Source of the DNA: a virus
IMG/VR virus record: IMGVR_UViG_3300043172_000883
Location: 1-63,607 of that record
DNA length: 63,607 nt
Direction: 5' to 3' (one strand)
Below, piece after piece: positions 4,647 through 63,607 of the stretch. Positions within the stretch are counted from its first letter, which is position 1. Each line of letters starts with the position of its first letter. Below the pieces are notes generated by a model. It was not told where the DNA came from, did not search any database, and worked only from the letters and a program-made list of their open reading frames with translations. The position numbers and the translations under genes were made by a program.

Positions 4647-4647
4647 C

Positions 4648-5126: not shown

Positions 5127-5127
5127 T

Positions 5128-6553: not shown

Positions 6554-6690
6554 TTAAGCGAGTAAGATGCCCCATGTGTAATTATAAAATTACTGATTGT
6601 AAAGAACTGGTTGCTGTATTTGCCTATAAATGTGAGAACACTGCCAAATGCGGGGTATCCTTCTGGATATTCAAGGAGACTAAGAAATGA
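6550..6690 (+). CDS. Zinc ribbon (46 aa)
   Basis: CPMCNYKITDC followed by CENTAKC gives four to five Cys in the order of a compact zinc ribbon, resembling Ogr/Delta-like short ribbons. Tight ATGA overlaps. A regulatory role like that of small phage zinc activators is possible but unproven. Confidence 0.7.
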   Translation: MIKRVRCPMCNYKITDCKELVAVFAYKCENTAKCGVSFWIFKETKK

Positions 6691-6962
6691 GCGATAGGAC
6701 CGTATCACACTTTAAAATCGAAGTTAATGAAGAAAGCATGATAATCGGTGTTGAATCAAAAATAGGTGGTGGTGAGAATATAATGATTGGCAAACAATTT
6801 CATAGCATGCCAGATAAAACTTTGGCTGCACTTATCGAAATCAATCTTAATCGATTAATCGCTGATGGTTTGATTCATGTTGAGATAACTGAGAGAGGTA
6901 AGATGGTCATTGATGAGATCACTCGGGTCGATTTTATCAAAGATGCGGAGGATTTCAAATGA
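6687..6962 (+). CDS. Hypothetical protein (91 aa)
   Basis: Beta-rich N-terminal half, then helix (ALIEINLNRLIADGLI) and a strand; no Cys. The pattern hints at a small alpha/beta domain. Coupled to neighbours by ATGA overlaps. Confidence 0.65.
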   Translation: MSDRTVSHFKIEVNEESMIIGVESKIGGGENIMIGKQFHSMPDKTLAALIEINLNRLIADGLIHVEITERGKMVIDEITRVDFIKDAEDFK

Positions 6963-7105
6963 AAAGAAATATTGAAGATATTGAAAAATTAAGACAATTT
7001 CTGTGGGACAATTATAATGTTTCAATGTCTAATTATGGAGTACATCAATTAGATAGATATATTTCTATGTTCGTAGAATGGAAAGTAAAGAAGGTGTTTG
7101 ATTAA
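6959..7105 (+). CDS. Small hypothetical protein (48 aa)
   Basis: Helical, with several aromatic residues (FLWDNYNVSMSNYG). Starts in an ATGA overlap and ends in a TAATG overlap. Confidence 0.6.
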   Translation: MKRNIEDIEKLRQFLWDNYNVSMSNYGVHQLDRYISMFVEWKVKKVFD

Positions 7106-7404
7106 TGAAAAAGAAGAAAATGATTGAGATCAAACAAAAAAATTGCCCCGACTGCGGTTTTGAGATGTCTATGCACATGTTCGATGATGACACAAAACAA
7201 GTATGGTGTGGACCATTATCTACCTGGAAAAAGACGGTTTGGTGTCTCAGTCTTGGACTGATTGATCTTGTTACAATCCCCATAGAAAAAGAAAACAAAG
7301 AAAAATTTAATTTACAAGAATGGATTACCGAAAATCCGGTTAAATTTAATTACATACTGGTTGGCTTGTTATTTATACTAATTGTTGTATTATTTTTGAT
7401 ATAA
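7105..7404 (+). CDS. Zinc ribbon with tail anchor (99 aa)
   Basis: N-terminal CPDCGFEM then a second Cys (VWCGP) form a probable zinc site; the last 22 residues are a hydrophobic helix (FNYILVGLLFILIVVLF). It is the same design as the gene at 1465-1815. It abuts the terminase start without a gap. Confidence 0.75.
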   Translation: MKKKKMIEIKQKNCPDCGFEMSMHMFDDDTKQVWCGPLSTWKKTVWCLSLGLIDLVTIPIEKENKEKFNLQEWITENPVKFNYILVGLLFILIVVLFLI

Positions 7405-8952: not shown

Positions 8953-9166
8953 ATATAGCAATCAATTTGCCAAGTAATTTTCGAATGATAATGTTGGCAG
9001 CCATGAGAAGTTCAAGAATTTCTTTGAAATCCACTTTTCCATCATCTGCTTTTTTCTCGGCAATCAATATGGTAAATCCACGTAGTTCTTTGATGATCCA
9101 GGCTGATAGTGGAATTAAAACCACATAACCAAAAATCAACCAATATGCTAGGGTTTGATAATTCAT
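8927..9166 (-). CDS. Membrane protein (79 aa), holin-like candidate
   Basis: An N-terminal hydrophobic helix (LAYWLIFGYVVLIPLSAWII) is followed by a charged amphipathic region and a second, weaker hydrophobic helix. The leftward gene is probably monocistronic: a TATA box (GTATATAAATT, 9185-9195) lies about 25 bases before its ATG, implying a leaderless mRNA. It runs into the 3' end of the terminase gene. Size and topology would fit a holin, but no endolysin is seen nearby. Confidence 0.75.
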   Translation of the reverse strand: MNYQTLAYWLIFGYVVLIPLSAWIIKELRGFTILIAEKKADDGKVDFKEILELLMAANIIIRKLLGKLIAIFTPTQTSS

Positions 9167-9184
9167 GCTAGTAATATGTATGTT

Positions 9185-9195
9185 AATTTATATAC
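9185..9195 (-). promoter_or_regulatory. TATA box of the leftward membrane protein gene
   Basis: Read on the minus strand the sequence is GTATATAAATT, centred about 25 bp upstream of the ATG at 9166, the archaeal spacing for a leaderless transcript. Confidence 0.65.
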
Positions 9196-9223
9196 TAAAA
9201 TAGGGCATACCCACATAATATGA

Positions 9224-9233
9224 CCATATATTT
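9224..9233 (+). promoter_or_regulatory. TATA box of the gene at 9261
   Basis: CCATATATTT lies about 30 bp before the start codon and about 30 bp from the divergent TATA box, so the 94-bp gap is a bidirectional promoter. Confidence 0.5.
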
Positions 9234-9260
9234 TTTAAGTCTAAAAACGAATATATATTC

Positions 9261-9557
9261 ATGGCAAAAGTAGAAATCTCATGCTTGGATGAATTCGAAG
9301 CTGAATTTAAGGATGCCCTGGTATTACTGGACACTCTTGAAGAGAGTAAAAAAGTAAAAGATGCCAAGAAATATTTGTCAAGTCTTATGTGGCACATGCA
9401 CGGGAAAACACAAAGACACAGCCATGATGGATGGGGACCAGCCAAGTATATGAAAATATGGCTTAAAAGAGTACGTAAGATTCCAGAAATGCAAACTTTT
9501 GTAGATAGCGTCCTAGAAAGGATGCCAATTAAAATAATAATAAGGTCGCTGATTTAA
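9261..9557 (+). CDS. Hypothetical protein (98 aa)
   Basis: Acidic helical N-terminus, then a His- and Trp-rich stretch (WHMHGKTQRHSHDGWG) that could bind metal, then a basic helix. First gene of the rightward block after the bidirectional promoter. No family recognised. Confidence 0.7.
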   Translation: MAKVEISCLDEFEAEFKDALVLLDTLEESKKVKDAKKYLSSLMWHMHGKTQRHSHDGWGPAKYMKIWLKRVRKIPEMQTFVDSVLERMPIKIIIRSLI

Positions 9558-9576
9558 TGTATAGGATTTGGTATAC

Positions 9577-9723
9577 ATGGTAGGAATGAAAAGACCTCGA
9601 TGCGTGATATGTGAGAATCTAATGAATATAATGCTTATTCGTACAGTAAACGATACTGGAAGCCAGATCTACAAAAGTGTTAACCATTGGTATTGTAAAC
9701 ATTGCAAGGAAATCCGTATATAA
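9577..9723 (+). CDS. Zinc ribbon (48 aa)
   Basis: CVIC and CKHC separated by about 30 residues in a 48-residue protein: a minimal zinc ribbon. The next ATG could also be the start. Its last codons contain the TATA box of the following gene. Confidence 0.7.
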   Translation: MVGMKRPRCVICENLMNIMLIRTVNDTGSQIYKSVNHWYCKHCKEIRI

Positions 9724-9724
9724 A
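9716..9724 (+). promoter_or_regulatory. TATA box of the BppU-like gene
   Basis: GTATATAAA is centred about 27 bp before the ATG at 9747 and overlaps the stop codon of the upstream gene. It decides the start of the next gene in favour of ATG 9747. Confidence 0.6.
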
Positions 9725-9746
9725 CTTAGAAAATATTGTATATGAA

Positions 9747-10079
9747 ATGGTAGACCAGATTACTGCGGGCGATGCTTTTCCACTTTTAACAGTAACTCTC
9801 AAAGATAAAGATGGAAGTGTAATTGATCTTACAGACGCGGTGGTTACTGTCTACGTGCGTTTTGAAGGGGAAACAACTGATCATTTTGAGCGTGTGGCAA
9901 CGAAAAAAACCCCACCTGGAGTAGATGGAATAATAGAATGGGAATTCGAAGTTACTGATTTCACAGGGGATCAGGCCAAACTTGGATTTATCAAATGGTG
10001 GCCACAGGCTGTTTGGAATACCACGGATCCGCTGACCTTTAGTAAGCTGTTCTACGAAGTTGTAGCCGAGGACGATTGA
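9747..10079 (+). CDS. BppU-N-like baseplate/fibre protein (110 aa)
   Basis: The pattern ITAGDAFPLLTVTLKDKDGS followed by DLTDAVVTVYVR is that of the N-terminal beta domain of BppU-family baseplate proteins and similar virion proteins, which holds an adhesin on the virion. Only that domain is present. The start is placed on the ATG about 27 bp behind a TATA box; an in-frame TTG lies at 9702. Confidence 0.7.
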   Translation: MVDQITAGDAFPLLTVTLKDKDGSVIDLTDAVVTVYVRFEGETTDHFERVATKKTPPGVDGIIEWEFEVTDFTGDQAKLGFIKWWPQAVWNTTDPLTFSKLFYEVVAEDD

Positions 10080-10174
10080 TTGTATATTAAATAATTTACA
10101 TAGGAATTAGCCATTTATAAACTTGCGAAGTAATTATTTATAACAACCAAAAAGAAAGTTTATACGGTGATACT

Positions 10175-10648
10175 ATGAAAGAAGAAGAAAGAAAATTAAT
10201 TATAAAAGCCCAATTGTCAGCAAAACATATTCGTGATGGTAAAGTAATAAAAGACTACGGCGTTGTCTGTAAGAAAGTAGTAACAGATGTTTTTGTTGCC
10301 TACCTAGTAGATGCAATGCAGGACAGTACAACCTACCCAATGGATGTATTCAAATACCATGATAGTGGTACAGGTTCTACGGGTCCAATTCCAGGGGATA
10401 CTACACTAGAAACACCCTGTGCAGAATCAAGAGATACAGGCACACTCGACGAGGGTGCAACAGCTAACATCTTTAAGACTGTTGCCACACACACCTATGC
10501 AGGTGGATTTGCTATCACTGAGCACGGAGTATTCTCTGAAGCTACAGGTGCAACATTGCTGGACAGATCAACATTCTCAGCTATTAATGTTGTGGCAAGT
10601 GATAAGATCGAATTTACCTATGAGTTGACTGTAACCGCTGGTGGTTAG
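10175..10648 (+). CDS. Virion structural protein, fibre-like (157 aa)
   Basis: The core has the features of a widespread family of phage fibre/decoration proteins: YHDSGTGSTGPIPGDTTLE, then TVATHTYAGGFAITEHGVF, then LLDRSTFSAINV and a closing beta-strand. A GGTGAT Shine-Dalgarno lies just before the ATG, and TATA-like ATTTATAAC further upstream. Probably sits on the capsid or tail tip; the exact location is unknown. Confidence 0.75.
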   Translation: MKEEERKLIIKAQLSAKHIRDGKVIKDYGVVCKKVVTDVFVAYLVDAMQDSTTYPMDVFKYHDSGTGSTGPIPGDTTLETPCAESRDTGTLDEGATANIFKTVATHTYAGGFAITEHGVFSEATGATLLDRSTFSAINVVASDKIEFTYELTVTAGG

Positions 10649-10653
10649 TATAA

Positions 10654-11880
10654 TTGGTTCAGCTATGGGCTAAGAATAGTACCACCCACATACTATCAAC
10701 AGGTACTTTTAATTTTGATATTGATACTCCCATTGGTACAAGTGTCCAATTACAGGATATTGAGAATGGAGAGACATGCTATTTTTATGAGGATACTGGT
10801 GGAGAGGAAGTACCTTCAGGTCAATGGACTTACAGAGTAAATATAGGAAAGGGCGGTGGTGGTGGTTCAGATCCTACCTGTGATATCACACTTGCTATTA
10901 TCAATTCAAGTGGAGTCATTGTTGATACTATCCTAGGCCCCGACAACTACACTGGGGATGCAAATGCCGGAGTCATCAAAACTAATACAGGGAGTATTGG
11001 AGTTAAGACTATTGGAGCTACTGAGAGAGTAGCATTGATTATAGATAATGTGGTTGCTGGTGCTCGTCAGTTAGAAGTCAGATTTGATGGTGTAACAGAT
11101 GATGACACAGATATTGTCAGACCCCAAACATTAGAAGGTGAGACTTATTATCAACCAATTGATGGTGCACTAACCCCCTCGGGTAGTCTTGCTAAACAGA
11201 CAAGTAAATATCCTGTAGGTGAACTAACATCTAGTGGTGAAGTAGCATCAGCTACCATCTTTAATAAAACAATTGAAGGTGAGTTAACCTCATCGGGTGC
11301 TATAGCAAAACAGACATCAAAATATCCAATAGGTGAGTTAACCTCATCGGGGGCTATAACTAAACAGACAAGCAAATTCCCCGTAGGAGAATTAACCTCA
11401 GTAGGTAGTATAGTCAAGAAAACATTTAAAACATTCACAGGGGCTTTTACTCCAGCAGGTATTGTAGCATCAGCAACCATCTTTATTAAAACATTAATTG
11501 GAACTCTTACAAGTTCAGGTAACGTTAGTAATGCTATGACATATGTCAGAGCGTTTGCTGGTACACTTACAAGTTCTGGTGTTCTTAGTGGCCTTACCAC
11601 ATATATCAGATCATTTGGTGGGACTCTTACCACAACAGGTACTGTTATCAAGAAAACAAGCACATCAATTGCTGGCGTATTGACAAGTGCAGGCACAGCA
11701 ATCAAAAAAGGATTTAAATCATTGCTCGGAACTTTGACAAATTCTGGATCATTGGGTGCTGAGAAACGGGGTGTTATTGAGGTTTTAATAGGTATAACAG
11801 AAGAGGTGTGGGCAATTAAGAATGTTTCATGTTCACTTGTGGCAAATAAAAATATCAGTGATGAGGTTGATATATTTTAG
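10654..11880 (+). CDS. Repeat-containing surface/fibre protein (408 aa)
   Basis: The N-terminal 150 residues form a beta-sandwich-like region with a Gly5 linker (KGGGGGSDP). Residues about 165-375 consist of some eleven tandem repeats of 18-20 residues with the core G(E/T)LTSSG, alternating with Lys-rich or aromatic strands, as in beta-helical or beta-roll fibres. The start is TTG, six bases after the preceding stop. It is probably a receptor-binding or capsid-surface protein. Its end overlaps the converging gene by four bases. Confidence 0.75.
   Translation: MVQLWAKNSTTHILSTGTFNFDIDTPIGTSVQLQDIENGETCYFYEDTGGEEVPSGQWTYRVNIGKGGGGGSDPTCDITLAIINSSGVIVDTILGPDNYTGDANAGVIKTNTGSIGVKTIGATERVALIIDNVVAGARQLEVRFDGVTDDDTDIVRPQTLEGETYYQPIDGALTPSGSLAKQTSKYPVGELTSSGEVASATIFNKTIEGELTSSGAIAKQTSKYPIGELTSSGAITKQTSKFPVGELTSVGSIVKKTFKTFTGAFTPAGIVASATIFIKTLIGTLTSSGNVSNAMTYVRAFAGTLTSSGVLSGLTTYIRSFGGTLTTTGTVIKKTSTSIAGVLTSAGTAIKKGFKSLLGTLTNSGSLGAEKRGVIEVLIGITEEVWAIKNVSCSLVANKNISDEVDIF
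11151..11736 (+). repeat. Tandem 54-60-bp coding repeats (about 11 copies)
   Basis: Each unit encodes G-x-L-T-S-S-G plus 11-13 variable residues. Third-position differences between units show that the array is old and under protein-level selection. It also produces a long spurious open frame on the other strand. Confidence 0.75.
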
Positions 11881-12236
11881 AAATAATCATCTATTTTATT
11901 ATTAAAACCTCTTTTCTTATCCAATTGCAATCCATGTTGTAGATCCCTAGCAATCTCTTCACTAGTTAGTGTTGGATCGATATGGAATATTGGCAAATCC
12001 TCTTTCTTCTTATGTAGATGACAAATATTACATTTCCATATTTCCCATTTTAATTTCATGTGGCTATATTCAAAAATACAATCATGGGGTAGACAAGCAC
12101 CATGAGGCAATTTTTTTCTATCATGATACATCTTTGCAACTATCCAGAGCAATCTTATATCAGCATCAAATGATTTATGATCTATCTCGATTTCTGGTGC
12201 ATCACCAGGAATAGAACAATACGCACAATCTTTCAT
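11877..12236 (-). CDS. Zinc-binding protein, possibly HNH-like (119 aa)
   Basis: CAYC at the N-terminus, an EIDHKSFDAD segment and a later CNICHLHKK resemble the metal ligands and DH of HNH-type domains, but the order is not convincing enough for a nuclease call. It is the last gene of a leftward five-gene cassette and converges on the fibre gene. Confidence 0.7.
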   Translation of the reverse strand: MKDCAYCSIPGDAPEIEIDHKSFDADIRLLWIVAKMYHDRKKLPHGACLPHDCIFEYSHMKLKWEIWKCNICHLHKKKEDLPIFHIDPTLTSEEIARDLQHGLQLDKKRGFNNKIDDYF

Positions 12237-12237
12237 T

Positions 12238-12486
12238 TTAAGCTCTCCTTATACATACTTTACAATCCACCTCAGCCCTATTCGTGGTTGATTTGACAAA
12301 AGCAATCTGACGACCACATACACAAATCTTACCATCTTTTACCAAATGGATCGCTAAAATCGTTCTTCGTGGCGTATCTTCACAATCTCCTTGAACGTGT
12401 TTTTGCAAACTGAATAAACTAATCAATGATTTATCACAATTAGGGCATACGAACCGCCCATATTCGATTTTAACCACGTAACTCAT
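12238..12486 (-). CDS. Zinc finger protein (82 aa)
   Basis: CPNCDKSL with a downstream HVQGDC gives a C2HC finger, and CVCG plus CKVC give a second zinc site. The ATG overlapping the upstream stop is chosen as start. Likely a DNA- or protein-binding zinc protein. Confidence 0.75.
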   Translation of the reverse strand: MSYVVKIEYGRFVCPNCDKSLISLFSLQKHVQGDCEDTPRRTILAIHLVKDGKICVCGRQIAFVKSTTNRAEVDCKVCIRRA

Positions 12487-12761
12487 CTTCCAAGATGCTC
12501 CTTGCAAATTTTACATGACTTGCACTTGTTACAACATAGGCTCTCATTCAATTCCCCATAGGCATGATTCAGACACCTATCACAGCACACAAGATCGGTG
12601 AGTGGCATCTTTCGCATTTTTCTAGCCATTTTTCTTATAATATGGCCTTTCTCAGCATCATTTAATACCAATATGCCCCATGCCTGGGTTAATTTGTAAT
12701 TAAGTGACTGGAATATCACCTCAATGGATGCTTCAAGAGCTTTTAGTTTATCAGCATTCAT
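12483..12761 (-). CDS. Cys-rich protein (92 aa)
   Basis: A helical N-terminal half with a basic patch (RKMARKMRKM) is followed by nine Cys in about 35 residues (CCDRC, CCNKCKSCKIC), enough for two zinc sites. ATGA overlaps to both neighbours in the cassette. Confidence 0.75.
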   Translation of the reverse strand: MNADKLKALEASIEVIFQSLNYKLTQAWGILVLNDAEKGHIIRKMARKMRKMPLTDLVCCDRCLNHAYGELNESLCCNKCKSCKICKEHLGR

Positions 12762-12919
12762 TTACCCAACTCCTTCATTAATTTTAGCCATATTTTCTCT
12801 ATTTCTAGTGCAACATTATGGCTTTGCATCGGATCCATGCCTTCATTTCTTAAAAGCCCTATAGTGTCATTAATTGCTATATTTCTATATAAAGAAGTCG
12901 ATTTCCAATAGTCACTCAT
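12758..12919 (-). CDS. Small hypothetical protein (53 aa)
   Basis: Helical, no Cys. It fills the gap between two genes with ATGA overlaps at both ends. Confidence 0.65.
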   Translation of the reverse strand: MSDYWKSTSLYRNIAINDTIGLLRNEGMDPMQSHNVALEIEKIWLKLMKELGK

Positions 12920-13209
12920 TCCTCGATCTTCTCCTTGCTTATTATCATAACATCACCAGTGAAATACACATACAACTTATCCAAGTTTTTTAACCCCATC
13001 TTTCGTACAAAATCATGGGGTACTGTCATCTTCATATACTGTCCTTTGATACTGTGGACTGCATATTTGCCCTTATAGAAAAACCATTTGGTTATTGATT
13101 CAATCAAATCATCTTGGTTCATATATATTCGTACGATCGTTCGTACAAAAAGGTTGTTATCGGCTCTCGGTTTAAATACCAACTTCCTAGACTGCTTATG
13201 AATTGACAT
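12916..13209 (-). CDS. AbrB/SpoVT-like transcriptional regulator (97 aa)
   Basis: The C-terminal 45 residues show the swapped-hairpin AbrB pattern MKMTVPHDFVRKMGLKNL followed by two short strands (KLYVYF, DVMIISK). Archaea and their viruses use such proteins as DNA-binding regulators. It heads the leftward cassette. A TATA box on the minus strand (AAATATAC, 13234-13241) sits 28 bp before this ATG, inside the first codons of the portal gene. An internal start (MNQDDL) is the alternative. Confidence 0.75.
   Translation of the reverse strand: MSIHKQSRKLVFKPRADNNLFVRTIVRIYMNQDDLIESITKWFFYKGKYAVHSIKGQYMKMTVPHDFVRKMGLKNLDKLYVYFTGDVMIISKEKIEE
13131..13150. promoter_or_regulatory. Direct repeat TTCGTAC, possible operator
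   Basis: Two TTCGTAC boxes start 12 bp apart around a GATCG core, some 60 bp downstream of the AbrB-gene start and 25 bp upstream of the portal TATA box. Position and spacing would suit control of the portal promoter by a dimeric regulator. Confidence 0.4.
13171..13178 (+). promoter_or_regulatory. TATA box of the portal gene
   Basis: TTTAAATA lies 25-32 bp before the TTG at 13203, supporting a leaderless start there. It lies within the coding region of the divergent AbrB-like gene. Confidence 0.6.
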
Positions 13210-16200
13210 ACCTTGGCACGCACGAAGATTCGGGTATATTTCCTGAACAAGAAAAATATATCACAGAATTGACCAAAGCAATAAATCCTCCGTTTACCAC
13301 ACGTTGGAGAAACAGAATTGCTAGTCGACTTGGCTTTGCACCAAGTATGAAAATGTTGGAAGCTAATAAAATGCTTACCAAACAGCTTCGAAAGATGCAA
13401 ATTATCAATAATCCCATCGCCACCAGGTTCCAAGGTGGTTCAGGTGGTGAGGCCATTGCATACCATCCAAATCAATATGAGCACATGTTTTACTCAGTGC
13501 TTACCAATTCAACTGCACGTCCTATGTTGAATACACGTAAGCGAGAATTATTCAGACAGGGTTTTGAAATCACACCCAAATTCGTTAAGAAGTGTAAGGC
13601 ATGTGAGGCTGATTTTGAATATGAGGTAAAGGAATGTGAGCTTTGTGGATCCTTTGATTTGCGTACACCAAACATTGCTGAGAAAGAATTACTTGAGGAT
13701 CTGATTGTAGAGAAGGTGAACAGGAATAATCAATCTTTGGTTGACGTATTGAAAGAATTACTCGAGGATATGGATATAACTGATGATTGTTGGCTTGCTG
13801 TTCGTAAGAATTACATGGAGATGGATGGTAAGATTATATCTGGGATCCCTATCGAATTATGGCGTGTCAATCCTGCTCATATGGCATTCAGTGTGACTGA
13901 ACACCGAGTAATCGGAGAATATGAATATACTTGTATAGATCATCGTATGTTTATCTCAAGCGATCCTTTTATACCATGTGAGGAATGTGGTAAATCGCTA
14001 CATGCTGTTATCGCTGTACAATATGAGGCGGGTATGCAAGAAATAATATTCAGATTCATTGCTGGAGAAATTATTCATTCATCCATGTATCGACCATCCG
14101 CACTTTATGGCTATCCAGGTGCACTTACACTTTATTATGATCTCAAATTGACCAATAAACAGGTTAAATATATGGCTGATTATTATGATGAGAAGAAGAT
14201 CGCCAATGCTTACCTGATGATACCCACTCGTAATGTCTCCAGTGTTAAAGAACATATGGAGGAGATGAAATTAAAATTACAGAAGGATCCGTATACTATT
14301 CCCTATACTATATACGATCCAGATAGCAAGACTGTCCCACAACTAATACGAATGGATGCCAGTCCTCAAGAAATGCAATTCATGGAGGTTCGTGAGGAAT
14401 CACGTAATCGTATGGGTGCATATTGGGGTGTTGCTCCCATTATGAATAGTGATATGTCCGCTGGTGGTGGACTTAATAATGAGGGTATGCAATTCACCGT
14501 CACCAATCGTGCCATGGAAGATGCTCAAACCACCATGAATAATAATCTGATAAGTCCTCTTACATTGATGTTTAATGTGATGGATTGGGATCTAGGCTTA
14601 CCACCAAGCGAGGAGCAAGATGAGGTGGCTGAGCTGGACCGTCAACTCAAAAAGGATCAAAGTGCGTTGTATAAGCAGCAATTGGGATTCAAAGTATCAC
14701 TACTACCAAATGGAGACTATCGATTTGAACAACCAAGCGAGGAGGAACTTGCGCAACAACAGCAAATGCAACAAATAGGAGAAGGTAATGGTGGTCCCAT
14801 GGGCGAAGGGGATCCTAATGAACAGGATACACCATTTTTTAATAATATCAATCCGCGTGGTGCTGGCAACCAGGCACTTGCGGAGAACCAATTCCAGGGA
14901 AGTCCAACCAAACCACAAGCGGATCATAACCTGGTTAAATTGCTACTGCAGAAGGGAACTCCCATCAAAACAGCCCTAGAAGTGGCTAAAGATCAGAATG
15001 GAGATAAATACAAATTCAATGATGAAATCCCTGATTGGGAATGGTCCGACGATTATGATGTAAAGGAATTTTTAACAGTTACGCTTGATGAGATCAGTCC
15101 ACACCCAGATTTTGAACTCAATGATGATGATATTCTGAAAGAAAGTCCCAGGGTACGACCAGAAACACTGGCTTATTATTTCAATGAGACAGATGAGATG
15201 CAACCGCTGGTGGTTGATGAGAGTTATAATCTACTAGATGGCTATCATCGCCATTATGTACTGAAAAACATGGACCAAAAGGATGTTCGTGTGGTAGTTG
15301 TAGGAGCCAAGTCATTGGCTAAGATGTACAAATTTTTTCTTGCCAAAGTAAAAGATCATCTACGAGCACCACCAGGCGGTGTTAATATACATGGCCAATT
15401 CTATCCTGGAGGACAATTCATTCCACAAGAAGTAATCGATGCAATGTCAGATGAGGAAAAACAGGCAGTGCAACAAGGGCAAGATGTGGGCGGTGAACCA
15501 GGTCAAGAAGAAAAGGAAGGAGATATCGAGGAATACCGAAAAGAGGTTGTTAATGAAAGACAGATCGAGCTAAATGAATATAATAGTATGTTGATGCAAA
15601 CAAATATAGAATTAGAAGGGTTAAATACTAGGCGTGATAAATTATACGAGGCAAATGAAAATTTAAGAAATGTTTTGAATAGAACCGTAAAACAACAAAA
15701 TAGGAAAGATGAAATAAACTGGGAATTATGGGAAATTTCTGATAAGATAACCCAAACTGAATCTGAAGCCACTAAAATAAATGTAAAAATAGAAAACACA
15801 TTAAAAAGAATGAATAACCCAGATTACGATCTAGCAGATAGATTATCTGAAATTGATGAAATAATTCATGCAGCATTAAAAAATGATACAATGAAGAAAA
15901 AATATCCAAGATGGATTAAACGAGAACAAAAAGATCTAGATAAAATTAATGTTGCAATAGTTAAAAAAGATGCCAGCTTGTATGATGTTGATTTTGTAGA
16001 GGATACTTGGGAGGAAACTGAACCAGTTTTGTTAGAAATGAAGGGGTATATGGAAATCAATATCAAAGAGTATAAAGAATCACTGGAGCAAACAGATGAA
16101 ACCAGTTTGGATGAAACTCTTTCAAAATATAATGAGGAGCATAAAGCATTACGAGATTTATCTATCAAAAAGGATGGAGAACATTGGCCATATTATAAAA

Positions 16201-32109: not shown

Positions 32110-33273
32110 GTGTCGGTTGTCGGTGGTAATGGTGATTATGATCCTGATTGGGATGGATTCAGTAATGTCAGCGGTGATCTACATGGATGGATGGATCCAG
32201 TGGATGGTAGCTCGCGAGGAGCTAAATATAAGATCATTGATGGTCTAGCACATATGTTCTGTGAAAGTGGAGCCTATGGAGCCAGTTGGGCAGATATAGC
32301 CAGTCACTTACCAGCAAATCCTAAACCTGGTCGAACGGTTTTGAGAGTAAACACCGATGAATCAAACGCGGAAAGGCTTTATGTGTATAATGGCGAAACG
32401 ACATCATGGAAATATTTTGATACGCTAGGTGGTGGTGTTACAGACCATCCTTCATTAACTGACAAGAACACTGAAGCTGATATCCAGCACCTCACCGCTG
32501 CACAAGTTGGAGCTTTACATGAAATCTATGTACATCCTACCTCAGATATTAATCATCTCACTGATTCAGAATATGGGGATTTACATTCAATCTATGTACA
32601 TCCCACATCAAACGTAAATCATTTAACAGATATAGAATATGGAGATTTACATGAAAAATGGACGACAGGCAACACAGAAACCGTGATAACAGCAGAATTG
32701 GCAAATGATCAATCTATCGATAATGCTATTGATGGTTTGATCACAACACATAAAAATATTTCAACTGCTCATCATACGAAATACACGGATAATGAAGCAA
32801 AAGCCGCAATAAGAGCAGCCAAATTAGAAGAAGTAGAGGGTAGATTTCCATCGGTACAAGTTGGCAATGGTGCGAGTATACAAGGATACAATAGTCTGTC
32901 TGTAATAAGAATGCCCAACAACGACGCTGATTGCTATTTCAGATTTAATCAGAGAATACCTCGACATTTTGACGATGGTAATATCACTATTAAATTCTTA
33001 TATAGATTATCGTCTGCCAATTTATATAATGTAAAATGGAATATTGATTCTGTTGATAGAATAATCGGAGAACAACTTTCTACTACTCTGAAAAACATAT
33101 TGAATGTATCCACAGCTTATGATTTTCCTGCCGCTACAGCTAATACATGGCGAATACATACTATGAATCTCACTGATGCTGATTTACATGCTGGAGATTT
33201 ATTGGGAATCCAGTGTCTATCTGATGCGAGTAATACAGCGACGTTAGATATATTCGAGATATGGTTGGAGTGA
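32110..33273 (+). CDS. Tail fibre protein (387 aa)
   Basis: GTG start four bases behind the hub gene. Residues about 135-185 contain two and a half copies of a 22-residue repeat (GDLH-IYVHPTS-NHLTD), typical of fibre shafts; the C-terminal 120 residues form a beta domain that may bind the receptor. Likely host-range determinant. Confidence 0.75.
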   Translation: MSVVGGNGDYDPDWDGFSNVSGDLHGWMDPVDGSSRGAKYKIIDGLAHMFCESGAYGASWADIASHLPANPKPGRTVLRVNTDESNAERLYVYNGETTSWKYFDTLGGGVTDHPSLTDKNTEADIQHLTAAQVGALHEIYVHPTSDINHLTDSEYGDLHSIYVHPTSNVNHLTDIEYGDLHEKWTTGNTETVITAELANDQSIDNAIDGLITTHKNISTAHHTKYTDNEAKAAIRAAKLEEVEGRFPSVQVGNGASIQGYNSLSVIRMPNNDADCYFRFNQRIPRHFDDGNITIKFLYRLSSANLYNVKWNIDSVDRIIGEQLSTTLKNILNVSTAYDFPAATANTWRIHTMNLTDADLHAGDLLGIQCLSDASNTATLDIFEIWLE

Positions 33274-41771: not shown

Positions 41772-42859
41772 TTGCGACCCATCTCCTCTTTCAAATCTGT
41801 CTCACAACAGTATCTGAATTTGCAATATAGCTCACGACATTCCCAAAAATTATTATTACCCAGAAGTGCTCCACGCTGCATGGCAGTAAGTGGGATAATG
41901 GTCCGTTCTTCCTCTGCAGTGAACACGAGATCAAGTTTTTCCTGAAGTGGTTCAAGCCAGCTCTCATCGAAATCTTGCTTGTAATACCTCATCTCGTAGT
42001 TATTACGGTCCATATAGAGTATTGCGCCTTTGATACCGCCGAGTGCAGCTTGATAGCCCAATAACTGTTCGAGATGACCAGCTTTGGGTGTGTATTGGAA
42101 TCCTTTGGTTGATTTGATATCAATTACCACCAGCTCATTATCAACCCTGCATAGCATATCTGGATGGCCTGTCACCTTACCAGGTCGGCCTTTGATAAGT
42201 GCTGTTGGTGGTATATCAAATTCCATATTGATAACAATATCGGATCCCTCAAGCCTTGATTGAATATACTCATGTACTGATTGGCCAGCCTCGGCTTCAT
42301 TTAACACGTCGAGTGATTTATGGCGATAGTGACGATCAAATGATTCTTTGACAATCGCTTTATCAAAATACAGCGTTTTTGGTTTCTTCAGATTCATCTT
42401 GGCAAATTGCATCTTTCGCATACATCCTGGGAGTGAGGACATGCGCTGCGTTCCCTTATCTGGTACGTACCCATGACCAAACTCCCTGTTCTTCTTGTGG
42501 AGCCTCTCACGAATGGCGATGTAAAGCGGATCACTGTTATCCAGGGTTGGTTGTCTACTAACCGCTGCTTTGCTGATCTGACGGAATAATAAAACACCAC
42601 CTTTTTTATTCTTCTCGATGTTGAACCTGCGTTTACCAACACTGTAATCATCACTGGTGGTGGTTTCTCGACCCATAAATTCATATTCTGCAAATGGTAT
42701 AACTGGAGCGTTTTCCAGTGCATGATGACCAAAATAACTTATGATGGCATCGCCTTGAAATGTTGCATGTGCAATCCACATGGGTACATCACCAGGTAGC
42801 ACCATGGCCTTATCCCACTGCGTTGTTACCATTACTTTGTAAAGTAAAAGTTCTGGCAT
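41768..42859 (-). CDS. PD-(D/E)XK exonuclease, RecB/Cas4-like, with Cys cluster (363 aa)
   Basis: The nuclease core is visible as GHPDML (acidic residue) followed by VVIDIKSTKG (D-x-K) in residues about 235-260, then a helix with QLLGYQAAL. C-terminal Cys residues (CRELYCKFRYCC) plus an upstream PGCMRK resemble the 4Fe-4S ligands of Cas4 and AddB nucleases. It should resect DNA ends for recombination or replication. The start after GGAGGCAAGAAAAATA, in a TAATG overlap, is chosen over one six codons upstream. Confidence 0.85.
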   Translation of the reverse strand: MPELLLYKVMVTTQWDKAMVLPGDVPMWIAHATFQGDAIISYFGHHALENAPVIPFAEYEFMGRETTTSDDYSVGKRRFNIEKNKKGGVLLFRQISKAAVSRQPTLDNSDPLYIAIRERLHKKNREFGHGYVPDKGTQRMSSLPGCMRKMQFAKMNLKKPKTLYFDKAIVKESFDRHYRHKSLDVLNEAEAGQSVHEYIQSRLEGSDIVINMEFDIPPTALIKGRPGKVTGHPDMLCRVDNELVVIDIKSTKGFQYTPKAGHLEQLLGYQAALGGIKGAILYMDRNNYEMRYYKQDFDESWLEPLQEKLDLVFTAEEERTIIPLTAMQRGALLGNNNFWECRELYCKFRYCCETDLKEEMGRK

Positions 42860-43047
42860 TATTTTTCTTGCCTCCATTCTTCCTCGGTGGTTTGTTTGGC
42901 TACTGTCTGTCGTACTGCCCTACAATTTTCACACCAGAGTAATGTTGTGTTTATCCACTGTCGCACGGCGCGACCGTTGATCTTGGCACGTTTCCTGATT
43001 TTTGGTATGTATAGCCTTGCATTACACACGTTACACTTAGGATTCAT
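42859..43047 (-). CDS. Zinc ribbon (62 aa)
   Basis: CNVC and CENC flank a basic region (RKRAKINGRAVRQ), a nucleic-acid-binding ribbon by composition. Leaderless promoter: a TATA box lies 28 bp before the ATG. It heads the recombination operon. Confidence 0.7.
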   Translation of the reverse strand: MNPKCNVCNARLYIPKIRKRAKINGRAVRQWINTTLLWCENCRAVRQTVAKQTTEEEWRQEK

Positions 43048-43070
43048 ATTAGTTATAGCTTGTATTTTGA

Positions 43071-43080
43071 ATATAAAAAC
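43071..43080 (-). promoter_or_regulatory. TATA box of the recombination operon
   Basis: GTTTTTATAT on the minus strand, about 28 bp before the start at 43047. A CTAGGG/CCCTAG palindrome (43080-43095) touches its upstream side and could be an operator. Confidence 0.6.
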
Positions 43081-43098
43081 TAGGGTATCCCCTAGTGG

Positions 43099-43135
43099 AA
43101 AAATAAATAAAAAAAGTCGGAGGTTTTTAGCCTCC
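43099..43135 (-). terminator. Hairpin and U-tract terminator of the noncoding RNA
   Basis: On the minus strand GGAGG-CTAAAAA-CCTCC is followed by GAC and seven T, then a further T-rich stretch. This is a good intrinsic terminator for transcription coming from 44.1 kb and ends the structured region. Confidence 0.65.
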
Positions 43136-44095
43136 TTTCGGAAATCGTCATTTCCCTTTGTTAGTTAAAACGAAATTATGGTAATTGGTCTGGTTACATC
43201 CCCTACCACTAAGGGAGTAGTATTGTAGTCACTCCATATTAATCCTTTATTCACACAATTTAGAGAGGGCCAGAGAAGCCGTGCTGAAATCGTTTCTCCA
43301 ACCAGTCTCAGTGAGGATGGTCGATAATCCTCTTCATCATACCCTTGCGGGTACGGGAAGCGACCAACTCTTCCCTTTAGGGGGGTTATTGAAAGGCGGA
43401 GCTTGTGGTCATGTTTCAACCACGCCCGTTATTTCCCATGGGATCAGGGTTTGCCAGCTCCGTTGTAAGAGAGAAGGCGAAAGTTTATCGGTTTAGGATT
43501 GTAAGACAACCTTCTCTGGTTACTGTAAGAGAGAGGGCTTGTACCTTCCTACTAACCCTCTCTTGTTACTGTCAGCCTACTATTGTAAGACCGTAGGCTA
43601 TGGACTGGTATACACTGTCTCGGTAGACCGAGCTTAGGTATTATAAGGGAGAAGGCTGCCATGCATTTTTTTCACAGCTTTATAGGGTGCACCCTAAATA
43701 AACCTTCTCTTTAGTATTGAAGGACTTATGGAGTGACCGTGATGGGGTCAGTACCACCTTCGCAACTACTGTAAGAGAGAAGGCGAGTCCTACTACCACG
43801 AGCTCGAAAGCAATGTGTTCCTTCTCTTGTTACTGTAATCGGGATAAGTCCTGACAGCTACCTTCAATCTATTTAAAGTCAGATCACGACAACCATTCAG
43901 TAGCGTAACTTATCCCTAAGTTGGTATTGTAATGAAAGAAGGGTATTTTTACTACTGGAAACCTTCCCTCGTTACTATAATGGGGACCTACATCCGTGAG
44001 GAATGCCCCTAGTTTTGCCAATGTAATGGGGAAATAGGTTCGTAAACCACATTCCCCGTTTGTGAAGTAGTCAGTTCCACGCTCTGCCTAAGACA
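43105..44095 (-). ncRNA. Candidate 1-kb structured noncoding RNA with repeated hairpins
   Basis: No convincing gene lies in this stretch. Instead a chain of hairpins is joined by variants of one linker, on the minus strand UUACAGUAAC (seen about a dozen times, as UUACAAUACC, UUAUAGUAAC, UUACAGUAG and so on). Plus-strand stems include 43470-43477/43510-43517 (AGAGAAGG), 43530-43537/43556-43563 (AGAGAGGG, a paired change against the first), 43574-43580/43593-43599, 43649-43655/43703-43709, 43776-43783/43820-43827, 43841-43848/43909-43916 and 44028-44033/44052-44057. A TATA box at 44117-44124 and a terminator at 43099-43135 define a transcript of about 990 nt. Strand is inferred from those two signals. 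Function unknown. Confidence 0.75.
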
Positions 44096-44116
44096 TTTAA
44101 TAATACGGGCAACCCC

Positions 44117-44124
44117 TATTTAAT
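44117..44124 (-). promoter_or_regulatory. TATA box of the noncoding RNA
   Basis: ATTAAATA on the minus strand, followed by GGGG and TTGCC, nearly the same core promoter as that of the neighbouring 58-aa gene (ATTAAATA, GGG, TATTGCC). Transcription would begin near 44095. Confidence 0.55.
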
Positions 44125-44144
44125 TATTTCTTATTTAATAGGAT

Positions 44145-44321
44145 TTATTGTCCAGTAATCTTGATAATTGCCTTGATATATCCATCATAAATGCGTTTTA
44201 TTTCATCGTGAGCTTGTTCTTTTGTATAGCTCCCTTTCAAAGTACTTGCGTCCTTCACAACTTGACCAATCGATCCGAGTGTGAAAGCCAACAAACTGAT
44301 TATATCTGCTGAGTCAGTCAT
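44145..44321 (-). CDS. Small hypothetical protein (58 aa)
   Basis: Begins with an ATG 26 bp behind a TATA box (44343-44350), so it is probably leaderless. Hydrophobic N-terminal helix (ADIISLLAFTLGSIGQVV) then a charged helix. Its stop lies just before the promoter of the noncoding RNA, so the two may be co-regulated. Confidence 0.65.
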   Translation of the reverse strand: MTDSADIISLLAFTLGSIGQVVKDASTLKGSYTKEQAHDEIKRIYDGYIKAIIKITGQ

Positions 44322-44342
44322 AGCTAATTATTGGCAATACCC

Positions 44343-44350
44343 TATTTAAT
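44343..44350 (-). promoter_or_regulatory. TATA box of the 58-aa gene
   Basis: ATTAAATA on the minus strand, followed by GGGTATTGCC, about 26 bp before the ATG at 44321; twin of the noncoding RNA promoter. Confidence 0.55.
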
Positions 44351-44365
44351 CCTTGCTTATGTTAT

Positions 44366-45844: not shown

Positions 45845-46013
45845 TCTTAATCACCACTGGTTTACCATTGCTCTTGGACCTCGCATACATATCTAACAAA
45901 TGATCCAAGAAATCATCATGTGTTATATTCTCTCGTCTGAGATCGCCCTTGTGTCGCTCTTTCTTTTCCAAGAATCGCTCATGTGTGGCTCGACTGATAG
46001 TTATCACACTCAT
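45837..46013 (-). CDS. RHH/antitoxin-like small protein (58 aa)
   Basis: The N-terminal SVITISRATHERFLEKKE looks like a ribbon plus first helix of an RHH or VapB-like antitoxin domain; the C-terminus (DFLDHLLDMY) is helical. No toxin gene is next to it. ATGA overlap with the transglycosylase gene. Confidence 0.65.
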   Translation of the reverse strand: MSVITISRATHERFLEKKERHKGDLRRENITHDDFLDHLLDMYARSKSNGKPVVIKID

Positions 46014-46738
46014 ATAAAAAACTCCTGCAATGGTCGCGATCTTATTAAAAATTCATCAGAATTAAATTTCAATTGGTGATGTGTGGTTATTTCAATTCTC
46101 TTCAAATATTCTTGGAAATATAACTCAAATTCATGGGTTTTAGCTGATGCCTTTCCAAGCCCGCCTATCCTTGGAAACTTCCAACTCATACTATCAAAAC
46201 TATCTATAATTGCAAAAACGTTTTTCAAATGGTATAATCTCAGACCAAAGGCGTGGATGAAGCTTTCTGGAAATTGTTTTCTCAGGTAGTGCAGGGCATG
46301 TTTAACAAAATCACGGTTCCCACTTTTACACATGGTTCCAACTGCAATCTTATCATGTGGCCCATATTCCTTTTTGAACCAAGTTATAAATTCAACAAAA
46401 CTACCGTAATTATCATAATAGCCTTGGATCACTGGAAGTTGACTAGGATCCTCTGGATTGAATAGATCCATCAAAAGCTGTTTACTATATTCCACATTAT
46501 CAACATCTGTTTTTTTACCAAATTCACCAACCAAGTCTGGACAATCTGGGACCACCTTCCAACCATCAGTTTTCAGATTCTTCCATTTGTTAATTTTTTT
46601 GTCAGAATGCCTATCAGATTTCAGTAAATCATAGATCCCAATATCCACAATCTCATGCTTATAATTCTTCCTTGGTTTTTGTTTGATATTCCGCATGATG
46701 TATGGGTAATCAATCGGTGCGTAAGTATAGAACCTCAT
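46010..46738 (-). CDS. dpdA: DpdA-like tRNA-guanine transglycosylase family protein (242 aa)
   Basis: The sequence follows the TGT/DpdA TIM barrel: a N-terminal EIVDIGIYDLL with the active Asp, then VGEFG, PVIQGYYDN, KIAVGTMCKSGN, and FIHAFGLRLYHLKN ending in IIDSFDSMSW, the family's second Asp region. DpdA proteins exchange guanine in DNA for a 7-deazaguanine such as preQ0, which archaea make for tRNA archaeosine. No preQ0 synthesis gene is here, so the base would come from the host. The ATG behind GGGTGATATT is chosen over one 13 codons upstream. It likely protects viral DNA from restriction. Confidence 0.8.
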   Translation of the reverse strand: MRFYTYAPIDYPYIMRNIKQKPRKNYKHEIVDIGIYDLLKSDRHSDKKINKWKNLKTDGWKVVPDCPDLVGEFGKKTDVDNVEYSKQLLMDLFNPEDPSQLPVIQGYYDNYGSFVEFITWFKKEYGPHDKIAVGTMCKSGNRDFVKHALHYLRKQFPESFIHAFGLRLYHLKNVFAIIDSFDSMSWKFPRIGGLGKASAKTHEFELYFQEYLKRIEITTHHQLKFNSDEFLIRSRPLQEFFI

Positions 46739-46742
46739 AATA

Positions 46743-46889
46743 TCACCCACAATTACCCATATGGCTTTCAATCGCAATTTTAATCATTTTCAATTGGTCC
46801 TTTGATAATGGTACTTCTTTGGTTTCTTCTTCAATATGACCGCAAATATGAAGATATAAATCTGAGAATTGATATTTTAGTTTCTTCAT
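46743..46889 (-). CDS. Small hypothetical protein (48 aa)
   Basis: Helical protein with a short HICGH segment. Overlaps the upstream gene by ATGA. No family recognised. Confidence 0.6.
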   Translation of the reverse strand: MKKLKYQFSDLYLHICGHIEEETKEVPLSKDQLKMIKIAIESHMGNCG

Positions 46890-48183: not shown

Positions 48184-49479
48184 TCAAAAATATTCCTCCA
48201 AACGATATGATTCTATTTTAGGTTCCAATTTAATAGGTTCTAGCTTAAATGCCTCTTCTAATGTGGTGGCATTTAATATTTTCTCAACCAACGCTGTGTA
48301 AGGAGGCAATGCACCAGCAAACCCTAATACTCTTCTACCTTTTGCAATCAAATCTAATTGTTCTTTGGTCCAATTGGATGAAATATATTGGTTCTTTTTT
48401 AGTGAAGTCAAAGGTTCAAATCTCATTGGATACGATACCACTCCCCATGACATCAAATCTTTTAGTCTGTATAGAAAATCTTCAGGTGTATCTTTATGAT
48501 TGAACAACGTGTAAAATATCATTTTTTGGCCTTTAAACCCTACATCTTTCAGAAATTGAATTCCGTTTTTCACTCCATTCCTTGCTGACTTCGTATCGTA
48601 GGCCAAATGTAAAAATGGTAATTTAATTTCTTTTAAGTTTCTCGCAATTTTTGGTGTGATTAACCTTGCATCCAAACCTTGATTGAAATCTACTTTTTGA
48701 TTGAATTTCTTAAGATCCATTATTACTTGTTCAAAATTCGGTGCAGCTAGTATATTATTATCCCAAATATACACTCGCTTATGGTTTTCGTTCAACATAG
48801 AATAAATATCATTTTTCACACTGTTGATTCGACCCTCAATTTTGGGAACTACACAGAAAGAACATCTCCTTACACAACCCCTTGTAGTGAACAATATATT
48901 GCCGTTCCAATTTGGAACCAAATCATAAGCAGGATTAAGGTTTTCTACTTCCCTAGATAGCCCTACGTGAACTGCATCAGCGCCAGAAAGAGATGCATGA
49001 TCAGGTAATATTGAAGCGTATATTCCTCCAAGAATAATTTTAGCGGTTGGAAAATATTTTTTATATAGTTTAACAGCTTTCCATACTGACCCCCATGACC
49101 ATGTAAATAAACTGGTAATATAAATAATATTCGGATTAAATTTTGGGAATTGAGATCTCTTTTTTTCTTTCAATCTTATTAGTTCAATATTATCCCCGCG
49201 ATTTCTATGAAATGTAGCTATTTTCAATAATCCTAATGGTGGATATTTTGTGTAATAATTTGGTTCAACTAGTAAAACATTCATTTTCTGAGTGAACTCA
49301 AATTTGAATTGTGTCATTAAGTTTTTCACTTTTCCATTTTTTAGTTTATCAGAATACCATACAAAAGGTAAATCATGGCATATTTTACAAACCCATTGAT
49401 AAGGTCCTGTTGTGTAGGGACCAAGCAATATTTCTGTTTTCTGACCACAACAATCACAGTGCGTTTTTATTAATTTCAT
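48184..49479 (-). CDS. B12-binding-type radical SAM enzyme (431 aa)
   Basis: An N-terminal zinc ribbon (CDCCGQ, CKIC) precedes a cobalamin-binding-like Rossmann region (VLLVEPNYYTKYPPLGLLKIA, then ILGGIYASILPDHA). The radical SAM core follows with C202-x3-C206-x2-C209 in TTRGCVRRCSFCV. This order is that of class B enzymes such as MiaB-like relatives and B12-dependent methylases. In a virus with DpdA it may modify the deazaguanine or another nucleotide, but the substrate cannot be read from the sequence. Confidence 0.85.
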   Translation of the reverse strand: MKLIKTHCDCCGQKTEILLGPYTTGPYQWVCKICHDLPFVWYSDKLKNGKVKNLMTQFKFEFTQKMNVLLVEPNYYTKYPPLGLLKIATFHRNRGDNIELIRLKEKKRSQFPKFNPNIIYITSLFTWSWGSVWKAVKLYKKYFPTAKIILGGIYASILPDHASLSGADAVHVGLSREVENLNPAYDLVPNWNGNILFTTRGCVRRCSFCVVPKIEGRINSVKNDIYSMLNENHKRVYIWDNNILAAPNFEQVIMDLKKFNQKVDFNQGLDARLITPKIARNLKEIKLPFLHLAYDTKSARNGVKNGIQFLKDVGFKGQKMIFYTLFNHKDTPEDFLYRLKDLMSWGVVSYPMRFEPLTSLKKNQYISSNWTKEQLDLIAKGRRVLGFAGALPPYTALVEKILNATTLEEAFKLEPIKLEPKIESYRLEEYF

Positions 49480-54775: not shown

Positions 54776-54800
54776 CGGTAAAATTCAATTGCCAACCACA

Positions 54801-54810
54801 TTATTTAAAC
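54801..54810 (-). promoter_or_regulatory. TATA box of the leftward replication operon
   Basis: GTTTAAATAA on the minus strand, about 30 bp before the ATG at 54775. Confidence 0.6.
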
Positions 54811-55131
54811 TATGAATCGCGATAGAATTTCATCAGTCATTATTGTAGTAAAATTAACACTTATTTACAGATTTGGTGCATTGAAATACCCACAACAAGT
54901 GCACCGTATTTCCATATATTGGCGCTATTATCCATGGGCATACCACAATTAACCATAATACGCTAAGCATATTTACCGTATTTCGTTGTCACTAATTTAT
55001 ATGTGTTTGCCATATTATTCGTGTATCACTTGGCATATGGGTTGTAATATATTACATTGTCTACTAATACCACTGCATAATTCACAAAACTACAATATCT
55101 GGATTTACTCACCTTTTAGATATTGACAGAG

Positions 55132-55147
55132 TATTGACGCGTCAATA
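55132..55147. repeat. Perfect palindrome TATTGACGCGTCAATA
   Basis: A 16-bp perfect palindrome, with a further half-copy TATTGAC 11 bp to its left. Typical of a dimeric regulator or initiator site. Confidence 0.7.
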
Positions 55148-55181
55148 TTGATACAACGCATTATGCGGATCCAAAATATTG

Positions 55182-55253
55182 CGAGGGTCGTACAAAAGTG
55201 TCTGGCTACGTCTAATACTGGCTAAATCTGAACTTAATTCCGTACGACCCTCG
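55182..55253. repeat. Inverted repeat CGAGGGTCGTAC (12 bp arms)
   Basis: Arms at 55182-55193 and 55242-55253 match perfectly; a third copy in direct orientation is at 55356-55367. Three copies in 190 bp suggest initiator or regulator binding sites. Confidence 0.75.
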
Positions 55254-55355
55254 TAACAACGAATTATTGCTCTACATCATTTATATGTATAATGTGTGTA
55301 TGTTACTACTATACTATTATTCATAACTTAATTGTTTACTAAAATATATGGAATA

Positions 55356-55367
55356 CGAGGGTCGTAC
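55356..55367 (+). repeat. Third CGAGGGTCGTAC copy
   Basis: Exact repeat of the left arm of the inverted repeat 174 bp upstream. Confidence 0.75.
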
Positions 55368-55411
55368 CAATAGGAGAGCTTAATACCAGATAAACTTGCA
55401 ACTACGGACAA

Positions 55412-55478
55412 ACAACGGATTCTCGACAATCCGCGACATTACGTTGTTTTTCGTACGAAAATAGCATGAATCCGTTGT
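55412..55478. repeat. Inverted repeat ACAACGGATTC with nested palindrome
   Basis: Eleven-bp arms (55412-55422 and 55468-55478) enclose TTTTCGTACGAAAA, a perfect 14-bp palindrome (55448-55461). The arrangement could extrude as a cruciform. Confidence 0.7.
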
Positions 55479-55541
55479 CTAAAATACTATACTACTGTTG
55501 TAATTCATCATTTCCCATACAAAACTTAACAATATTCCATC

Positions 55542-55581
55542 AGTACCACTATCAGTAGTAAGTACTACCCGCAGTGGTACT
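55542..55581. repeat. Nested inverted repeat AGTACCACT/AGTGGTACT
   Basis: Nine-bp arms with an inner GTAGTA/TACTAC stem form a nearly continuous stem-loop 140 bp before the start of the kinase-like gene. Confidence 0.7.
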
Positions 55582-63297: not shown

Positions 63298-63593
63298 GTT
63301 ACGGGATAATAGATAAGCCAGATCTAGAGAATGTGATTACCGCATCTATTAACTGGAGTGAAATTATTACACTTCGACTAGATGAGCATATTATTGTTAG
63401 TAAAATAGCAGATGCGGTACTAGAATCAATAAAAGAGGTGAATACCAAGAGTGAGTTTGATGGTAATCCAGATATTGTCGATATTTGTCATCATCAAATG
63501 GTGGAGTTGTATTATGCAACTAATCGTGGTATCATGGAAAGTCCATTTGAGGCGTGTTTCAAATGTTGGAAATTAAGGAGAATTGAAGAATGA
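63294..63593 (+). CDS. Hypothetical CxxC protein (99 aa)
   Basis: Complete copy of the gene whose end is repeated at the left edge. Helical with a CFKC pair near the C-terminus. ATGA overlap with both the wHTH gene and the next small gene. Confidence 0.7.
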   Translation: MSYGIIDKPDLENVITASINWSEIITLRLDEHIIVSKIADAVLESIKEVNTKSEFDGNPDIVDICHHQMVELYYATNRGIMESPFEACFKCWKLRRIEE

Positions 63594-63607
63594 CTAGACA
63601 AGACGAA
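63481..63607. repeat. Terminal direct repeat, right copy
   Basis: Identical to the first 127 bases of the window; joining the ends restores two interrupted genes. Confidence 0.95.
63590..63607 (+). CDS. Start of the 48-residue protein (truncated by the window end)
   Basis: Six codons identical to the start of the gene at 110-256; present only because of the terminal overlap. Confidence 0.85.

Follow-up and report, generated by a model that had tools for sequence, protein, structure and literature searches.

A Predicted Noncoding RNA Built as a Chain of Local Hairpins in a Tailed Virus with a Probable Archaeal Host

We describe a structured noncoding RNA of ∼985 nt that is very probably encoded by the minus strand of a virus genome (IMG/VR record IMGVR_UViG_3300043172_000883, 63,607 bp, listed as a virus record). 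It is predicted to lie at 43106–44095 and to fold as a chain of ∼13 local hairpins, joined by variants of the linker UUACAGUAAC. The window, that is, the whole stretch of DNA that was analyzed, is this record at its full length of 63,607 nucleotides. A structured viral RNA from this one genome is well supported by the stability of the fold relative to shuffled sequences, the weak coding signal, and the signals for transcription that flank the region; that it represents a new class of RNA is plausible but unproven.

RESULTS

The Virus Genome and Its Probable Host

Identical 127-bp repeats are found at both ends of the record (1–127 and 63481–63607), which indicates that the genome of ∼63.5 kb is complete; the 63,607-bp record thus appears to be an entire tailed-virus genome, circular or terminally redundant. 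In the phage collection searched, the portal and major capsid proteins matched archaeal viruses solely, namely haloarchaeal tailed viruses and viruses assigned to Methanomassiliicoccales and Methanofastidiosa. The capsid matches in GTDB genomes fell in two archaeal MAGs and one bacterial MAG. A TTTAWATA box (at most one mismatch) was present in 8 of 36 gene leaders, and 6 of these boxes were located 30–34 nt before the start codon (p = 0.01), as archaeal promoters would have them when leaders are very short. Taken together, the capsid and portal matches and the positions of the TATA boxes suggest that the host is most likely an archaeon.

The virus is isolated: relatives were detectable mostly for virion proteins, at ∼30–43% identity, the exceptions being widespread enzymes and a B12-binding radical-SAM protein. 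The latter (48184–49479, minus strand) shares 47% identity with a protein from a bacterial virus, Marinitoga camini virus 1, whereas the virion genes are of the archaeal-virus type. Weak similarity to DpdA and queuine tRNA-ribosyltransferase was seen for a protein encoded at 46010–46777 (minus strand), a hint that an archaeal virus may modify its DNA with 7-deazaguanine. Tandem repeats of ∼54–68 bp lie inside predicted virion-module genes (11164–11399 and 32479–32610), possibly encoding receptor-binding or fibre proteins. No tRNA genes were found in the complete virus genome by ARAGORN. A stretch of ∼800 bp without genes (54790–55575), near the turn of the GC skew and the divergence of gene direction, is a likely replication origin; it contains inverted copies of CGAGGGTCGTAC at ∼55182, 55242–55253, and 55354–55367, plus several other hairpins.

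A Gene-free Stretch Without Coding Signal

Approximately 1.1 kb without a credible gene separates a gene at 42859–43047 from a 58-amino acid open reading frame at 44145–44321, both on the minus strand, and a Cas4-like nuclease gene is located just downstream of the hairpin array. Real genes of this virus have codon scores of 11–14, and shuffling the region gives 1.8 ± 2.4; the best score in this stretch was 3.5, and the short frames within it had no Pfam matches. On these grounds a protein-coding reading was rejected, and the first-pass annotation of the stretch as gene-free was borne out.

Architecture of the Hairpin Chain

The units predicted on the minus strand are listed below in the order of the transcript, with the basis of each in parentheses.

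44028–44057, minus strand: U1, GGGGAA/UUCCCC with an apical GGUU-UACG-AACC hairpin, UNCG-type loop (fold, tetraloop list)
43983–44009, minus strand: U2, AGGGGC.../GUCCCC, weak (fold)
43929–43975, minus strand: U3, GUAA-C-GAGGGAAGG/CCCUUCUUUC-A-UUAC, with two G-U pairs on the minus strand (fold, arm pairing)
43841–43916, minus strand: U4, GGGAUAAGU/ACUUAUCCC, 9 bp (stem count, fold)
43771–43833, minus strand: U5, GUAA...AGAGAAGG/CCUUCUCU...UUAC (stem count, fold)
43719–43761, minus strand: U6, GAAGG/CCUUC, weak, with an alternative pairing of the 3' half to 43243–43224 possible (fold)
43649–43709, minus strand: U7, GAGAAGG/CCUUCUC plus an inner palindromic hairpin, UAGGGUGCACCCUA (stem count, fold)
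43610–43641, minus strand: U8a, AUAC...CUCGG/CCGAG...GUAU (fold)
43574–43599, minus strand: U8b, AGCCUAC/GUAGGCU (stem count, fold)
43525–43569, minus strand: U9, GUAA...AGAGAGGG/CCCUCUCU...UUAC (stem count, fold)
43465–43523, minus strand: U10, GUAA...AGAGAAGG/CCUUCUCU...UUAC (stem count, fold)
43397–43462, minus strand: U11, CGGAGCU/AGCUCCG plus inner hairpins (stem count, fold)
43313–43370, minus strand: U12, contains CGUACCC-GCAA-GGGUAUG, GNRA loop (fold, tetraloop list)
43263–43309, minus strand: U13, GGAGAA/UUCUCU (fold)
43140–43155, minus strand: U14, GGAAAU-GACG-AUUUCC, directly before the terminator (fold, tetraloop list)

U3, U5, U9, and U10 follow a common plan: GUAA, one or two unpaired bases, a purine/pyrimidine stem of 8–9 bp, a variable loop that is often a hairpin itself, and UUAC. 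A single A follows the UUAC of such a unit and precedes the next GUAA, so that the linker UUACAGUAAC is the 3' end of one unit, the A, and the 5' end of the next. The GAGAAGG/CCTTCTC cores and the loop hairpins TAGGGTGCACCCTA and GGTT-TACG-AACC (minus strand) reported in the first-pass annotation were found in the minus-strand array. Tetraloops of the GNRA and UNCG types (UACG, GCAA, and GAAA) occur mainly on the minus strand.

The linkers recognized by repeat and motif comparison are as follows.

43829–43838, minus strand: linker TTACAGTAAC, exact copy
43519–43528, minus strand: linker TTACAGTAAC, second exact copy
43971–43980, 43923–43932, 43765–43774, 43637–43646, and 43565–43574, minus strand: linker variants

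The short linker had been described as conserved; it is indeed a repeated element, but the exact form TTACAGTAAC is limited to two copies, and the others are variants with one to three changes. Linkers and arms are repeated in register at a spacing of 58–60 nt, with a repeated segment of ∼28 nt.

Excess of Local Stems

The minus strand of 44110–43105 folded with an energy z of −4.2 relative to shuffles, both globally and with the pair span limited to 150 nt; the plus strand reached z = −3.2 (global) and −2.7 (150-nt span). For the predicted 986-nt transcript (44095–43110), z was −5.7, and none of 20 shuffles was as stable. The fold of the minus strand is thus more stable than that of composition-matched shuffles in both calculations.

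Perfect stems were counted when they had at least 7 bp and at least three G-C pairs and enclosed a loop of 8–120 nt. The region contained 11. Across 60 dinucleotide shuffles the count was 4.1 ± 2.0 and never exceeded 10, and other windows from the same genome gave 2.6 ± 1.9. Similar stem counts were seen at 55.0–57.5 kb, where the stems sit in the putative replication origin and a gene. The first-pass annotation had proposed at least nine stem-loops; the chain itself exceeds chance, but its hairpins number about 13, not nine.

Local helices of at least 9 bp were also in excess (24 versus 12.8 in shuffles, maximum 20), whereas long-range helices of at least 9 bp were not (31 versus 32.7), and on the minus strand the global fold gained no extra energy over the 150-nt-limited fold from pairing beyond the local range. 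The combination of a local excess with long-range pairing at the chance level points to hairpins that form locally, one after another in a row, and gives no support to an ornate long-range fold. A 10-bp long-range helix of the global fold, between GUCACUCCAU (near 43734) and AUGGAGUGAC (near 43243), was likewise not above chance.

Pairing Is Maintained Between Diverged Units

With hand-chosen arms, 86 of 96 positions paired within units, compared with mostly 4–6 of 8 across the linker; because the arms had been picked for pairing, a unit-permutation test with them is partly circular. When linkers were chosen by sequence alone, cognate arms paired modestly better than permuted arms (p = 0.019). 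The arms of U4, U8b, and U11 differ in sequence and are equally well paired, and the pairing of U3 is kept through its two G-U pairs. The compensating change claimed earlier for two hairpins (AGAGAAGG/CCTTCTCT versus AGAGAGGG/CCCTCTCT) is real, but it distinguishes duplicated units of one genome, not species, and such paralogous compensation is weaker than covariation across species.

Promoter and Terminator Signals

The following elements flank the array.

44114–44139, minus strand: predicted promoter, a purine-rich stretch followed by the TATA-type box ATTAAATA(GGG) (26-nt element common to the upstream region of the next gene)
43100–43135, minus strand: predicted terminator, GGAGG-CUAAAAA-CCUCC followed by the T-tract GACTTTTTTTATTTATTTTT (sequence)
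43079–43096, minus strand: a further terminator-like hairpin, ACTAGGGGATACCCTAGT and then TTTTATATTC, directly next to the TATA-like box of gene 42859–43047 (sequence)

The TATA-like element ATTAAATAGGG (44124–44114) lies inside a 26-nt promoter element that is 81% shared with 44340–44365, upstream of the next gene, where it stands ∼28 nt before the ATG. From this spacing, the start of the RNA is predicted near 44095. For the downstream gene 42859–43047, a separate TATA-like box is found 30 nt ahead of the start. Terminator-like sites were not enriched over 36–55 kb (11 found versus 12.8 expected), so the reading as hairpin plus T-tract rests on the two sites at the end of the array; a T-tract alone would fit archaeal termination. 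A TATA-like box and a U-tract terminator bracketing ∼990 nt, as first annotated, are both present, and the transcript that they predict is ∼985 nt of the minus strand.

Search for Relatives

Blastn of the region against phage and plasmid records gave no match, nor did the exact unit pattern in IMG/VR. Two-linker and linker-plus-arm patterns retrieved no hairpin array from IMG/VR, the inspected matches being coding repeats or ordinary terminators, and a profile search with a linker model recovered essentially the window alone. The Cas4-like nuclease, primase, and radical SAM proteins yielded no relatives when used as baits in IMG/VR. A capsid alignment search identified 71 IMG/VR relatives and three genome loci; DNA similar to the array in 50 capsid-related virus records was limited to short chance words at most. 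A DNA search of 458 archaeal genomes (371 + 87) revealed no homologous array; the one match, of 28 nt, falls within a Thr/Pro-rich gene of an archaeal genome and was judged to be chance.

A folding screen of gene-free stretches in the capsid relatives did not reveal the array, but brought up a tRNA array and hairpin-rich genes. The former served as a positive control, in that the screen found a real structured-RNA cluster of ∼28 tRNAs in the virus record L108. This array (3900–14656; IMGVR_UViG_3300028340_000001), in a capsid-related virus, covers nearly all amino acids. The hairpin-rich genes are two related short genes of one virus (L118 7487–7858 and L120 2126–2470; IMGVR_UViG_3300033232_000051), in which small perfect hairpins (e.g. 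ctcccgaaa/tttcgggag) crowd the coding sequence; RNA-level selection inside the coding region is possible.

No Rfam family matched the region in cmscan at gathering thresholds, and a search of 42900–44300 at E values up to 10 returned none of GOLLD, ROOL, and OLE. The earlier statement that the RNA could not be assigned to a known class accordingly holds even at lax E values.

DISCUSSION

A Model for the Hairpin Array

Our preferred explanation, to which we give about an even chance as a whole, is a stand-alone noncoding RNA that grew by hairpin duplication and acts as a multivalent platform. An archaeal TATA promoter would drive minus-strand transcription of an RNA of ∼985 nt, which would end at a hairpin plus T-tract. 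The array would have grown by duplication of a ∼60-nt unit consisting of GUAA, a purine-rich 5' arm, a variable loop, a pyrimidine-rich 3' arm, and UUAC. The resulting ∼13 hairpins, like beads on a string, would present the same stem base and junction again and again; such repetition would offer many binding sites for one partner, and we therefore favor a sponge or scaffold of multivalent type. A single kind of RNA-binding protein, of the host or the virus, might be bound in many copies at the recurring stem bases and A-linked junctions, and would be titrated, as CsrB titrates CsrA, or scaffolded into a complex. This binding role is the more doubtful part of the model, and we consider it rather unlikely in itself. 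The computations support the structure and the signals for transcription; transcription itself and function we infer, and the protein partner is wholly conjectural. Counter to the model, folding better than chance is seen for the plus strand as well, and U2 and U6 are weak.

Alternative Explanations

Among the alternatives, an ornate RNA resembling GOLLD or ROOL, the nearest idea of the first-pass annotation, would be a compact large viral RNA that forms homo-oligomers via loop-loop contacts. Its size and viral origin would be similar, GOLLD being viral and often >800 nt (PMC12286853), and three self-complementary segments (TAGGGTGCACCCTA, TCCCATGGGA, and CGAGCTCG) could kiss or dimerise. However, three palindromes is about the chance number for 1 kb, and cage or dimer formation through them, although conceivable, is unsupported; Rfam returned no such family at either stringency, the genome lacks tRNAs, and long-range pairing is not in excess. 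The comparison was thus not borne out, and we regard this reading as unlikely.

We consider it similarly unlikely that the array is a DNA-level element, in which an array of dyad sites (TTACWGTAA) and inverted repeats serve partition, replication, packaging, or recombination and the folding of RNA is incidental. In its favor, the linker TTACAGTAA comes close to being a dyad, and the plus strand folds as well (z −2.7 to −3.2). Yet the dyad is lost in most linkers, the arms pair within units and not across the linker, the minus strand folds better, the array has promoter and terminator signals of its own, and the likely origin, with its GC-skew turn and inverted CGAGGGTCGTAC repeats, is elsewhere (54.8–55.6 kb).

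The divergence of the units, the weakness of some stems, and the position of the array directly upstream of a same-strand gene would also suit a decaying tandem duplication, or a structured untranslated leader of gene 42859–43047, with no RNA function of its own. This appears quite improbable, since a terminator and T-tract lie between the array and that gene, a TATA-like box belonging to the gene itself stands 30 nt before the start, and stems remain paired despite differences in arm sequence between units.

Least probable, and very unlikely in our judgment, is a CRISPR-like array or RNA anti-CRISPR, in which linker and flanking arms would form a 28-nt repeat that mimics those of the host, loops would stand for spacers, and Cas proteins would be captured: the 58–60-nt periodicity, the ∼28-nt repeated segment, the Cas4-like gene just downstream, and the precedent of viral RNA anti-CRISPRs (PMC10651486) speak for it, but the repeats are too diverged (76–100% identical over 17 nt) and the "spacers" range in length from 12 to 58 nt, with hairpins of their own, where a CRISPR array has near-identical repeats and spacers of similar length, the pairing of arms is within units and not over the linker, no Rfam CRISPR family reaches threshold, and the 458 archaeal genomes hold no similar DNA except the chance match in the Thr/Pro-rich gene. 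A CRISPR array proper was rejected on the diverged repeats and the within-unit pairing.

Significance and Comparison with Known RNAs

Large structured RNAs such as GOLLD, ROOL, and OLE are known from phages and bacteria, and their functions are poorly understood. A limited literature search found no large structured RNA described for an archaeal virus. The array may tentatively be proposed, at somewhat less than even likelihood, as the first known large (∼1 kb) modular hairpin-array RNA class of archaeal tailed viruses, with a dedicated promoter and a role as a multivalent scaffold or sponge in infection. Approximately 1.5% of the virus genome is given over to this one predicted noncoding RNA, which suggests an important role in infection, and the modular hairpin architecture would permit direct tests that are hard to do with compact cage RNAs.

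A tRNA array or cluster was rejected as an identity for the region, as no tRNA models match, and the same tools found the ∼28 tRNAs of L108. GOLLD and ROOL are RNAs of bacterial phages, often near tRNA islands, with elaborate cage-building folds (PMC12286853). The array resembles GOLLD as a large, intricate, noncoding, virus-encoded RNA of similar size; it differs in having neither a sequence nor a covariance match to it, in lying in a genome without tRNAs (a tRNA-island location being frequent for GOLLD, not obligatory), in being a local hairpin chain rather than a fold with long-range junctions, and in belonging to a virus of archaeal, not bacterial, type. ROOL and OLE are likewise large structured noncoding RNAs, ROOL being phage-borne, but neither gives an Rfam match, and a long-range or multi-junction fold is not supported in the array. 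Viral RNA anti-CRISPRs exist in the form of Racr, which are solitary repeat units, and the array shares with them the character of a viral noncoding RNA with repeat-like, partly palindromic segments (PMC10651486). It differs from Racr in consisting of ∼13 diverged units, without a match to a known host CRISPR repeat. RNAs of the CsrB/RsmZ type act on the bacterial protein CsrA/RsmE via GGA motifs, mostly in hairpin loops. Although the repeated motif of the array is in linkers and stems instead of loops, it resembles these sponge RNAs in its possible mode of action, and in that respect only, as a chain of hairpins repeating a short motif that could bind many copies of a protein.
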